From Streptomyces sp. NBC_00670 (lineage in GTDB: Bacteria; Actinomycetota; Actinomycetes; Streptomycetales; Streptomycetaceae), in assembly GCF_036226765.1 (NCBI RefSeq), contig NZ_CP109017.1:5891001-5955000 (forward strand): a stretch of DNA of 64,000 nucleotides. The letters run 5' to 3'. Position 1 is the stretch's first letter; each line of letters starts with the position of its first letter. The position numbers and the translations under genes were made by a program. This document shows positions 26,515-30,124 of the stretch, in pieces. A model generated the notes under the pieces. That model saw only the letters and a program-made list of their open reading frames with translations. It made no database searches and was not told where the DNA came from.

Positions 26515-27336
26515 GTGCGCAGGAAAGTGCACCGCCATCTGGGGAAGGTGGTGGCGGGCGCGGCCATCGCCGTGGCGGGAACGGCGGCGATGCTGGCCGT
26601 CACACTGCCCGGCTCGGCGGGAGCGTCCGGCAACGGGAACGGGAACGGGGAGGGCGGGGCGAGCGGCTCGGCGGCCCGGGCGGGGGCGGCCGGCGACGCG
26701 GCCGCCGTACCGCCCGGCGTCGTCGAGGACGCGCCCGCCGTGGGGAAGAAGGGCGTCGGCAGCGACCCGCTGACCGACGACGAGACCGCCGAGGTGGTGC
26801 GGATCGCGAGCAACCCGCAGTCGCTCGCCCGCACCCAGAACGTCGAGGGCGACCGCGGCCCGGAGCGGCTGAGCGTGCAGCTCGCCGAGCCGGACGAGAA
26901 CGAGCTGGACTCCACGAGCGCGCCGCGCCGCGCGGACGTCACGTACTACGACTACAAGAACGACACGCTCGTCACCCGGACCGTCAACCTCGACAGCGGC
27001 AAGGTCGAGTCGACCGGCACCCAGCACGGCGTCCAGCCGCCGCTCAGCCACGACGAGACGGTGGAGGCGGCCAGGCTGCTGATCGCCGACCCGCTCGGTG
27101 CCGGGCTCAAGGCCGACTACAAGGACGCCACCGGCAAAAAGTTGACCTCGCCCGACCAGCTCAGGCTGGACAGCATGGTCTACCGCGCCACGCCGGGCGT
27201 CCGGCCGGCCGCGCTCGACAAGTGCGGCGAGCACCGCTGCGTGCGGCTCTTCCCGAAGGTGAAGAACGGCCCGTGGATCGACAGCCGCGCTCTGATCATC
27301 GACCTCAGCACCCGCAAGGTCGCCAAGCTGCAGTGA
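26515..27336 (+). CDS. Exported N2/N3-like half of a copper amine oxidase
   Basis: The 273-residue protein starts with RRKVHRHLGK and a hydrophobic segment ending near GSAGASG, a signal peptide or anchor. The rest resembles the non-catalytic N2 and N3 domains of copper amine oxidases: DPLTDDETAEVV, LSVQLAEPDENEL, RADVTYYD, VNLDSGKVESTGT and the hallmark GVQPPLSHDE. The catalytic domain is in the next gene, with its own signal peptide, so the enzyme appears split into two secreted chains. GTG 26515 is chosen for the AGGGGG four bases upstream; an in-frame ATG at 26401 would put 38 residues before the signal. Confidence 0.78.
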   Translation: MRRKVHRHLGKVVAGAAIAVAGTAAMLAVTLPGSAGASGNGNGNGEGGASGSAARAGAAGDAAAVPPGVVEDAPAVGKKGVGSDPLTDDETAEVVRIASNPQSLARTQNVEGDRGPERLSVQLAEPDENELDSTSAPRRADVTYYDYKNDTLVTRTVNLDSGKVESTGTQHGVQPPLSHDETVEAARLLIADPLGAGLKADYKDATGKKLTSPDQLRLDSMVYRATPGVRPAALDKCGEHRCVRLFPKVKNGPWIDSRALIIDLSTRKVAKLQ

Positions 27337-27440
27337 CCGGGGTGGCCGGTCCGCACCGACCAAGCGGCCGGTCCGCACCCGTCTCCGTATCTCTTCTCTC
27401 TTCCCCAGCTTCTCTGCTGATGGCAAGGAGTCATCTCGTC

Positions 27441-28772
27441 ATGCGCGTGAACAGAATCAGCGGTGCCCGCAGGCGGGCCGCGGTCGGCCTGTCGGTGGCC
27501 GCGCTCGCGGCCGGCTGGACCTCGGCCGCCGGCCCCGCCGCCGCACAGCCCGCCGCCCAGCCCAGGAACGCCCCCACGGCGACCGAGGACTGCAGCTCCG
27601 CCTACCGGATCGAACAGAAGCTCTCCACCGGGACCACCTGGCGGATGTGCTGGAGCTACGAGGCCGAGGCCGGACTCGTCCTCTCCGACGTCTCCTACCA
27701 GCCCCCCGGCGAGAGCGCCCCGATCAAGGTGCTCTCCACCGCCAAGCTCGCCCAGATCCACGTCCCCTACGACGACGGCTCGGCCGAGTACAGCGACGTC
27801 ACCGGCGCCGGCTTCGGCCAGGGCCTGATGGAGATGGCGCCCGGGGAGTGCCCCGGCGGCACCATCAAGACCGTCAAGGTGCCCGAGGCCTGGGACCCCG
27901 AGCACGAGAATGTCAAGGGCCTGTGCACCACCACCCGCGCCCGCGGCCACGCCTACCGCATGCAGGCCGACACCGGGAACAAGGTGTTCCAGCAGCAGGG
28001 CAAGGACCTGCTCGTCTACACCGTCAACCAGACCGGCTGGTACGAGTACATCACCGAGTGGCGGTTCCAGGACGACGGCACCATCCACATGAACGTCGGC
28101 GCCACCGGCACCCTCGCACCCGGCGACTACAACGCCACCGACGACCGCGGCTGGCCGCTCGGCAAGGGCGCCCGCGCCTACGCCACCAGCCACAGCCACA
28201 ACGTCTTCTGGCGGCTCAACTTCGCCCTCGACGGCTCCTCCAAGGCCAAGGTCGAGCAGTACGACTCCAAGGTCACCGCGGCCGCGAGCGGCGACGAGGG
28301 CCCCACCAACAGGACCACCCGCACCAAGGTCACCAAGGAACTCGCGGGCGACGCCGCGAACATGCGCTGGTGGCGCGTGGTCAGCCAGAGCGGCAAGAAC
28401 AAGGACCAGCACGCGCGCAGCTACGAGATCGTCCCCGGGCCCAGCGCCAAGTACCCGGGCCGCAGCTACACCAAGCACGACGTCTACTTCACCCAGTACA
28501 AGAAGTGCGAGCAGTTCGCCAGCGACAACCTGCGCAACTGCGGCTCGGGGGCCGGGAAGTCGGTCGACAAGTGGGTCAACGGGGAGACCCTCAAGCACCC
28601 CATCGTCTGGGTCAACGTCGGCTTCCACCACGTCGCCCGCGACGAGGACCAGCAGCCCATGCCCGTGCACTGGCAGGGCTTCTCCCTCGCCCCGCGCGAC
28701 GTGACGGCCATGAACCCGCTCACTCCGGCCGAACTCGCCGATCAGAACGGCGATTACGGATCGGGTGGTTGA
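27441..28772 (+). CDS. Copper amine oxidase catalytic chain, secreted
   Basis: The 443-residue protein has a signal peptide (cleavage near residue 35) and the CAO catalytic domain: base Asp119 (SDVTGAGFG), topaquinone precursor Tyr201 in TGWYEYITEW, copper ligands His251 and His253 (SHSHNVFWRLN) and His397 (GFHHVARDED). It would oxidise primary amines to aldehydes, releasing ammonia and peroxide outside the cell. Usual enzymes are about 640 residues; the missing N2/N3 domains match the preceding gene. The Asn normally before the topaquinone Tyr is Trp here. AAGGAG lies ten bases before ATG 27441. Confidence 0.85.
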   Translation: MRVNRISGARRRAAVGLSVAALAAGWTSAAGPAAAQPAAQPRNAPTATEDCSSAYRIEQKLSTGTTWRMCWSYEAEAGLVLSDVSYQPPGESAPIKVLSTAKLAQIHVPYDDGSAEYSDVTGAGFGQGLMEMAPGECPGGTIKTVKVPEAWDPEHENVKGLCTTTRARGHAYRMQADTGNKVFQQQGKDLLVYTVNQTGWYEYITEWRFQDDGTIHMNVGATGTLAPGDYNATDDRGWPLGKGARAYATSHSHNVFWRLNFALDGSSKAKVEQYDSKVTAAASGDEGPTNRTTRTKVTKELAGDAANMRWWRVVSQSGKNKDQHARSYEIVPGPSAKYPGRSYTKHDVYFTQYKKCEQFASDNLRNCGSGAGKSVDKWVNGETLKHPIVWVNVGFHHVARDEDQQPMPVHWQGFSLAPRDVTAMNPLTPAELADQNGDYGSGG

Positions 28773-28876
28773 GAAACGAACCCTGTCCATCCGGCTGCAC
28801 CGCCGACCGGTCCCGGAGTACCCTTCCTTGATCGTTGGGACGGGTTTTCCACGGGGGAACGGAAGGCGGTGCACGG

Positions 28877-30124
28877 GTGGGCTCGGGAGGGCTGGAGCTG
28901 CCTCCTGGTGACGAGGGTCACGAGGATCGGGGCGGCAACTCCGCGGACGTCCCACCCGGCGCGGTGTCGCTGGCCAGGCCGATGGAGCGCGGCTCCATCG
29001 GCCCGGAGCTGGACTGGAACGCCGACGCCTGGCACGAGGTGCGCACCCGCGCCCAGCGGGCCGGCCGGGCCTACATCTGGCTGAACCTGGTCGAGCAGCG
29101 GCTGCGCGCGGTCGTGGCCGCCGTGCTGCGCCCGATCTACGAACCCGTCCACGGCGACGACTGGGTCGTCGCCGCGGCCGGGCCGGCCGGCCAGGAGTGG
29201 GTGCAACGGGCCGTCGCCGTACGGGAGGTGAGCCGCCGCAAGGGCTATCTCCTCGACCCGGCCGACGACAACGTGCTCAGCTTCCTCACCCTGCCCCAGC
29301 TGCGCGAGCTGATGGTGCAGCACTGGCCCTGCTTCGAGCCGTACCTGGACGAGCGCCGCGACGTCGAACTCGCCCTGGACGAGCTGGAGGTGACGCGCAA
29401 CGTCGTCTCCCGCAACCGGGCCCTGTCCGAGGCCGTGCTCGCCCAGGCCGAACGCGCCTCCGCCCGGCTCCTGGAGATCCTCGGCGCGGGCAGCGACGTG
29501 CCCTCCGCCCGCCGGCTGCCCGTCGACGCCGTCGAGGACCTGGTCGGCGACCGGTACGCCGACGTGGTCGCCGTCCACCCCGACCGGGTGCGGCTGCTGC
29601 GCCAGTTCCCCGCCGAGGACATCTTCGGCTCCGCCCGCCGGCTCGACGCCGTCGGCATCGGGCTCAACCTCCTGGTACAGAACTTCTCCGGCCGACGGCT
29701 GGTCCGGCTCGCCGAGTCCGGCACCCGGGTACGGCTGCTGTTCCTCAACCCCGCCTCCAGCGCGGTCAAGCGCCGCGAACGCGAACTGGGGATGAAACGG
29801 GGCGAACTGGGGCGCTCGGTGGAGATGAACATCCTGCACATGCGGCGCGTGCGCTCCCGGCTGCGCGACCCCGACGCCTTCCAGATCCAGGTCTACGACG
29901 ACACCCCCCGCTTCTCCGCCTACCTGGTCGACGGCGACGGCTCCGACGGCATCGCGGTGGTGCAGTCCTATCTGCGGGGCGCCCGCGGCATGGAGACGCC
30001 GGTGATGGTGCTGCGCGGCGCCGGGCGGGTGGTGAAGGCGGACGACGTGCTGGACGGCGGGCTCTTCCCCACCTACCGGGAGGAGTTCGAGACGTCCTGG
30101 GCGGATTCGCGTCCGGTGTCCTGA
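28877..30124 (+). CDS. SAV2148-type HEPN domain protein
   Basis: This 415-residue protein matches the streptomycete SAV2148 HEPN family as I recall it. After a disordered 45-residue start it is largely helical. Residues 85-92 read RPIYEPVH, an R-x6-H pattern that fits the R-x4-6-H motif of HEPN RNases, so an RNA-cleaving activity is possible but unproven. The second half has basic segments (SAVKRRERELGMKRGELGR) and a beta-rich C-terminus. GTG 28877 has GGAAGG ten bases upstream; a TTG at 28835 is an alternative. No operon partner is evident. Confidence 0.8.
   Translation: MGSGGLELPPGDEGHEDRGGNSADVPPGAVSLARPMERGSIGPELDWNADAWHEVRTRAQRAGRAYIWLNLVEQRLRAVVAAVLRPIYEPVHGDDWVVAAAGPAGQEWVQRAVAVREVSRRKGYLLDPADDNVLSFLTLPQLRELMVQHWPCFEPYLDERRDVELALDELEVTRNVVSRNRALSEAVLAQAERASARLLEILGAGSDVPSARRLPVDAVEDLVGDRYADVVAVHPDRVRLLRQFPAEDIFGSARRLDAVGIGLNLLVQNFSGRRLVRLAESGTRVRLLFLNPASSAVKRRERELGMKRGELGRSVEMNILHMRRVRSRLRDPDAFQIQVYDDTPRFSAYLVDGDGSDGIAVVQSYLRGARGMETPVMVLRGAGRVVKADDVLDGGLFPTYREEFETSWADSRPVS

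Follow-up and report, generated by a model that had tools for sequence, protein, structure and literature searches.

A probable two-chain copper amine oxidase of Streptomyces and related actinomycetes, with tryptophan in place of asparagine before the cofactor tyrosine

Two adjacent genes, here termed P1 and P2, within a 64,000-nucleotide stretch of DNA from Streptomyces sp. NBC_00670 (the window) probably encode a two-chain, surface-tethered extracellular amine oxidase with altered cofactor control, a reading to which a probability of roughly 0.6 is assigned. The evidence for it is that both halves have homologues among the copper amine oxidases (CAOs), that the pair is conserved and co-occurs, and that the catalytic residues are invariant at deep divergence. 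Against it stand the persistence of the catalytic domain (D4) without P1 in a nested clade, and a cofactor motif that lacks the consensus Asn. The genes are as follows.

26515 to 27336, + strand: P1, 273 aa with a GTG start; N2+N3 half of a split CAO
27441 to 28772, + strand: P2, 443 aa with an ATG start; D4 (catalytic) half, which carries a signal sequence as well

A first-pass annotation of the locus had proposed a CAO split into two exported proteins. Both of its open reading frames were recovered at the same coordinates, separated by 104 bases, and the short stretches that it had likened to N2/N3 (RADVTYYD, VNLDSGKV and GVQPPLSHDE) all lie inside P1. Since the two + strand genes are in different reading frames, 80/80 named relatives have the same arrangement, and replacement change is lower than silent change in both genes, P1 and P2 are neither chance open reading frames nor the product of a sequencing frameshift. 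GC content by codon position (0.71/0.51/0.96 for P1 and 0.61/0.51/0.96 for P2) is usual for high-GC coding sequence, and P2 is the single match to PF01179 in the 7.58-Mb genome. An isoamylase-type gene, probably glgX, lies upstream on the - strand, and P2 is followed by a HEPN_SAV2148 gene and then an exonuclease gene.

28835 to 30124, + strand: HEPN_SAV2148 + DUF5919 gene, directly 3' of P2, with no known link to the oxidase

Of the named loci, 80/80 retain the upstream gene and 75/80 both downstream genes, always in the same orientation, although several loci are short-flanked. The syntenic neighbours gave no hint as to substrate, and a search of the region revealed neither a sigma-70-type promoter nor a terminator, a result of little weight in Streptomyces.

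By homology, P2 is a D4-only CAO with every copper and catalytic residue in place. It matches the Pfam Cu_amine_oxid model PF01179 with E=3.7e-43 over model positions 6-405 of 407, and aligns with Arthrobacter globiformis phenylethylamine oxidase (AGAO) from residue 66 onwards. The Foldseek matches of its structural model (mean pLDDT 68) are CAOs (E=7e-21). A D4 domain with the CAO fold is present, along with the three copper His, the precursor Tyr and the Asp base.

27441 to 27548, + strand: P2 N-terminal signal sequence, residues 1-36, recognised by inspection (basic residues, hydrophobic stretch, Ala-x-Ala-type end)
27588 to 28730, + strand: D4 catalytic domain, P2 residues 50-430, with PF01179 over residues 50-426
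27795 to 27797, + strand: D119, catalytic base (AGAO Asp298), unchanged across all 115 split and all 34 canonical sequences
28191 to 28199, + strand: H251-S-H253, copper ligands (AGAO His431 and His433), invariant
28629 to 28631, + strand: H397, third copper ligand (AGAO His592), invariant

The topaquinone (TPQ) Tyr, copper His and base Asp that had been noted in P2 correspond to Y201, H251/H253/H397 and D119. Together with Y110 (AGAO Tyr284) and M407 (AGAO Met602), these residues are conserved without exception in the same 115 split and 34 canonical sequences; Y203 is also unchanged in 115/115 split sequences.

P1, in turn, is the N2+N3 pair that P2 lacks: the doubled alpha/beta domains of a CAO are present, but on a separate chain.

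26548 to 26604, + strand: hydrophobic stretch of P1 (residues 12-30), which probably serves as a signal anchor (hydropathy, pN/pS)
26623 to 26763, + strand: variable Gly/Ser/Ala-rich linker of P1, residues 37-83; the model is disordered to residue 67, and residues 37-66 are the least conserved
26764 to 27048, + strand: N2-like unit of P1, residues 84-178, boundary approximate; first helix plus strands, NCBIfam CAO profile 17-122
27049 to 27333, + strand: N3-like unit of P1, residues 179-273; second helix plus strands, hhalign

The AlphaFold model of P1 comprises, over residues 88-271, a helix followed by strands, twice over. All 50 best listed Foldseek matches against the PDB are CAOs, with E values from 2e-7 and probability 1.00. 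The TM-scores reach only about 0.38 on the query, in part owing to the inclusion of 67 low-confidence residues, and the rmsd of about 7 Å leaves the relative placement of the two units unsure. Profile-profile alignment with hhalign maps P1 residues 80-272 to CAO positions 20-204 with a probability of 96-98%, and this stretch stops just short of profile position 234, where the match to P2 starts. The earlier reading of P1 as N2/N3 is thus borne out by fold and by profile alike. The NCBIfam primary-amine oxidase model PRK11504 also matches P1 (E=1.2e-6), as well as 5/10 diverse P1 proteins. Pfam gave no significant match to P1, one relative being weakly AGAO-like_N2 (E=0.047), and neither a single-sequence search of PDB sequences nor a profile search with 19 P1 proteins linked it to a CAO; the relationship is visible only by fold comparison, profile-profile alignment and NCBIfam. 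A function hypothesis is hereby supplied for a protein without a Pfam model. Alignment of the P1 family also revealed that C237 and C242 are invariant.

The two chains were examined for signs of export and anchoring. The hydrophobic segment of P1 has a 19-residue Kyte-Doolittle mean of 2.06, versus 1.37 for the P2 signal, and the pN/pS ratio of P1 residues 2-36 is 0.28, versus 0.52 for the folded part, indicating stronger purifying selection at the N-terminus. Signal peptides mostly evolve fast. Given this strong hydropathy and conservation, the P1 N-terminus looks like a conserved, uncleaved signal anchor or membrane anchor rather than a throw-away signal. By sequence, both proteins would be exported separately, as had been proposed, but the N-terminal segment of P1 looks more like an anchor than a cleaved signal. 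The signal sequence of P2 is ordinary-looking, and P2 appears to be soluble in Streptomyces. Elsewhere in the family, two P2 homologues (L192 and L193, genomes G700 and G744) have a Ser/Thr/Pro-rich C-terminal tail that closes with LGNTG or LASTG plus a hydrophobic stretch and basic residues, which by inspection resembles a sortase-type cell-wall sorting signal, and a third (L199) bears Big_3_5 Ig-like domains. From these sorting-signal-like ends and Ig-like domains, such members are probably surface-held through P2.

The distribution of the pair was surveyed in some 1,800 genomes and, in addition, at 80 named loci. P1 directly precedes P2 in all 80 named loci, with gaps of 49-407 bases; 79 are labelled Streptomyces and one 'Actinobacteria bacterium'. 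P1 is present in 101/246 genomes of the order, all 101 belonging to the genus of the window, and 152/296 genomes drawn from the genus have some P2 match, most at high identity. Across genomes G001-G036 the searches for the two genes agree exactly, with both present in 15 and neither in 21; the probability of such agreement between independent genes is 1.8e-10 if shared ancestry is ignored. Two paralogue groups (about 53% and 47% identity) each have their own P1, and the class survey and its follow-ups revealed split pairs in six other actinomycete families (f19, f21, f28, f30, f38 and f117). Among 34 split-type loci that were checked, a separate P1 was found in 32, P1 was missing in 2 and none was fused; no fused N2-N3-D4 form was seen in the split clade at any locus inspected. 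In members that do not belong to the main Streptomyces group, the stop of P1 and a possible start of P2 often overlap, by 4-11 bases, or lie no more than about 20 bases apart, which suggests translational coupling.

D4 scores are bimodal, with split-type sequences above 340 bits and canonical ones below 135 bits, and 396 genomes of the phylum yielded no split-type member from beyond the class. In the tree, the split D4s group as a single clade, separated from the canonical D4s with 100/100 support and by a long branch. Distances within P1 and P2 are correlated (0.73), which may reflect species ancestry alone. The split is old and stable, and a single origin suffices on the sampled tree. The contention that the locus represents stable fission and not a frameshift is upheld by the conservation of the arrangement across the class.

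P1 is not a constant companion of this type of D4. Three split-type D4 loci with the Trp-Tyr motif have no adjacent P1: L205 (G649:C5:29582-30814), L246 (G1309:C23:75897-77189) and L292 (G1350:C49:183036-184205). A search of the whole G649 genome gave no match to P1, and P1 is absent from the flanks searched at L246 and L292. The three form one clade nested among the split proteins and retain the copper ligands, and are best read as having lost P1 once. D4 therefore does not always have a P1 partner, and the notion that the halves must meet does not survive as a universal rule. L205 and L246, though not L292, have by inspection a lipobox-like Cys close to the N-terminus, through which the enzyme would be tethered by another route.

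The following mechanism is envisaged for the two-chain enzyme. P2, as the exported D4, would bind copper through its three His; its Tyr201 would be converted to the quinone, and the enzyme would oxidise a primary amine to the aldehyde, with release of ammonia and H2O2. P1 would be held at the membrane via its N-terminal helix and flexible linker and would dock on P2 outside the membrane, in the manner of the fused domains of ordinary CAOs. P1 and P2 would then constitute one extracellular CAO in two chains, the docked P1 helping to form the channel for the substrate and keeping the enzyme at the cell surface. Positions 155 and 156 of HPAO-1 presumably lie in D3, in which case P1 would have a part in selecting the substrate. 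Both are conserved positions that form part of the CAO amine channel (PMC3382800).

It could be argued instead that P1 is a membrane-anchored assembly helper, which folds or copper-loads the emerging P2 and then releases it, so that mature P2 is active alone. The P1-less clade, in which D4 keeps its copper ligands and Trp-Tyr, is in keeping with such a role, as is the apparent difference between an anchored P1 and a soluble Streptomyces P2, both judged by sequence; loss of the Asn might, moreover, create a need for help with cofactor formation. However, P1 has kept the complete N2+N3 architecture and order, which retained docking explains more easily, and we know of no precedent for N2/N3 acting as a helper. 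This explanation is considered unlikely.

The cofactor motif is the second feature that sets the family apart, and the replacement of Asn by Trp before the cofactor Tyr was missed by the first-pass annotation.

28038 to 28049, + strand: cofactor motif W200-Y201-E202-Y203; Y201 is the TPQ precursor (AGAO 382), and W200 stands in place of Asn381

Trp precedes the precursor Tyr in 114/115 split sequences (100/100 in the window's group and 14/15 others), and the Thr of the consensus is Gln, Lys or Arg throughout the window's group (100/100). Among canonical CAO sequences, 33/34 carry the Asn and 34/34 the Thr, and the Thr-x-x-Asn-Tyr consensus that defines them is not found in the split family. 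Fission goes along with a change from Thr-x-x-Asn-Tyr to Gln/Lys-x-x-Trp-Tyr. In the Asn381Ala variant of AGAO, TPQ is still formed but 180-fold more slowly, kcat is reduced 160-fold and the ring is flipped (PMC9491219). Trp may hold the quinone ring in the stead of Asn, or P1 may help, both of which are guesses; what the residue beside TPQ controls can now be addressed directly through a natural Trp family.

These substitutions raise the prospect that the split family no longer makes TPQ, and is either a copper protein of other function or builds some other cofactor out of the neighbouring Trp-Tyr. Replacement of both the consensus Thr and Asn throughout the clade would fit such a change, and the length of the branch that separates split from canonical D4s denotes a major shift. 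Nevertheless, Y201, D119, Y110, Y203, the three His and M407, invariant in 115/115, are the full set for TPQ chemistry, and AGAO makes TPQ even without Asn381; loss of TPQ is accordingly thought improbable. As for a pseudogene pair, or a single gene broken by frameshift or assembly error, broken copies do exist elsewhere (L156, L211 and G128), but this explanation is refuted by the survey, in which 80/80 named relatives are alike, each chain has its own start and export segment, silent change exceeds replacement change and the clade has no fused form.

With respect to known systems, AGAO (PDB 1av4, 1rjo, 3wa2) has N2+N3 and D4 domains homologous to P1 and P2, respectively, and shares with P2 the copper ligands, precursor Tyr, base Asp and the equivalents of Tyr284 and Met602, but its roughly 640 residues form one chain, in which Asn381 precedes TPQ, as opposed to two genes and Trp. 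The canonical actinobacterial primary-amine oxidases (PRK11504; L162-L191 and others) have the same total domain content and are found within the same class, at times even within one genome; they differ in forming a separate clade (100/100), in having Asn (33/34) and in carrying N2-N3-D4 in one chain. E. coli TynA (PDB 1dyu, 1oac), an exported CAO and the top Foldseek match for P1 and P2 alike, differs in being a single chain that also contains a D1 domain. AGAO N381A (PDB 7wir, 7wis; PMC9491219) resembles the split clade in having no Asn beside TPQ, but was made in the laboratory and is slow both in forming TPQ and in turnover, whereas Trp is naturally fixed in the clade. The CAOs of known structure that have been reviewed are single-chain homodimers with the consensus Asn beside the quinone (PMC3382800), and no published split or two-chain TPQ CAO was found in the open-licence literature. 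Since N2, N3 and D4 do not share one polypeptide here and the Asn motif is lacking, the family is not filed as a canonical CAO; it is a sister lineage that probably works like one. More tentatively, it might constitute an unrecognised class of actinomycete copper-quinone oxidase, with two chains, one of them membrane-anchored, in which Trp-Tyr supports either a modified cofactor or a TPQ under different control, and with a derived lineage whose D4 chain functions in the absence of N2/N3. A large natural family with Trp, and with N2/N3 either lost or carried by a second protein that is probably anchored, renders the role of N2/N3 directly testable.

Several individual loci merit comment. Fusion was suspected in G378, G484 and G365, where very long frames surround P1, but P1 has its own stop and P2 is a separate open reading frame; the fused-looking L155 has a region masked with N. 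A second split pair in one genome (L156, G220:C29) is frameshifted, and a canonical CAO (L211, G527:C1) has its N-terminal half in another frame. In G128, a second P1/P2 copy (C1 10769879-10770782 / 10882728-10883870, L149) has been broken by rearrangement, such that about 112 kb separate the D4 remnant from a P1 fragment and a start of P2. Lastly, weak mid-domain D4 matches, at about model positions 171-384, were observed in family f19 (G718:C37:94073-94618, G621:C4:655483-656025 and G533:C42:12593-13135) within open frames of about 530-570 aa, and possibly represent a third, shorter CAO-like group.
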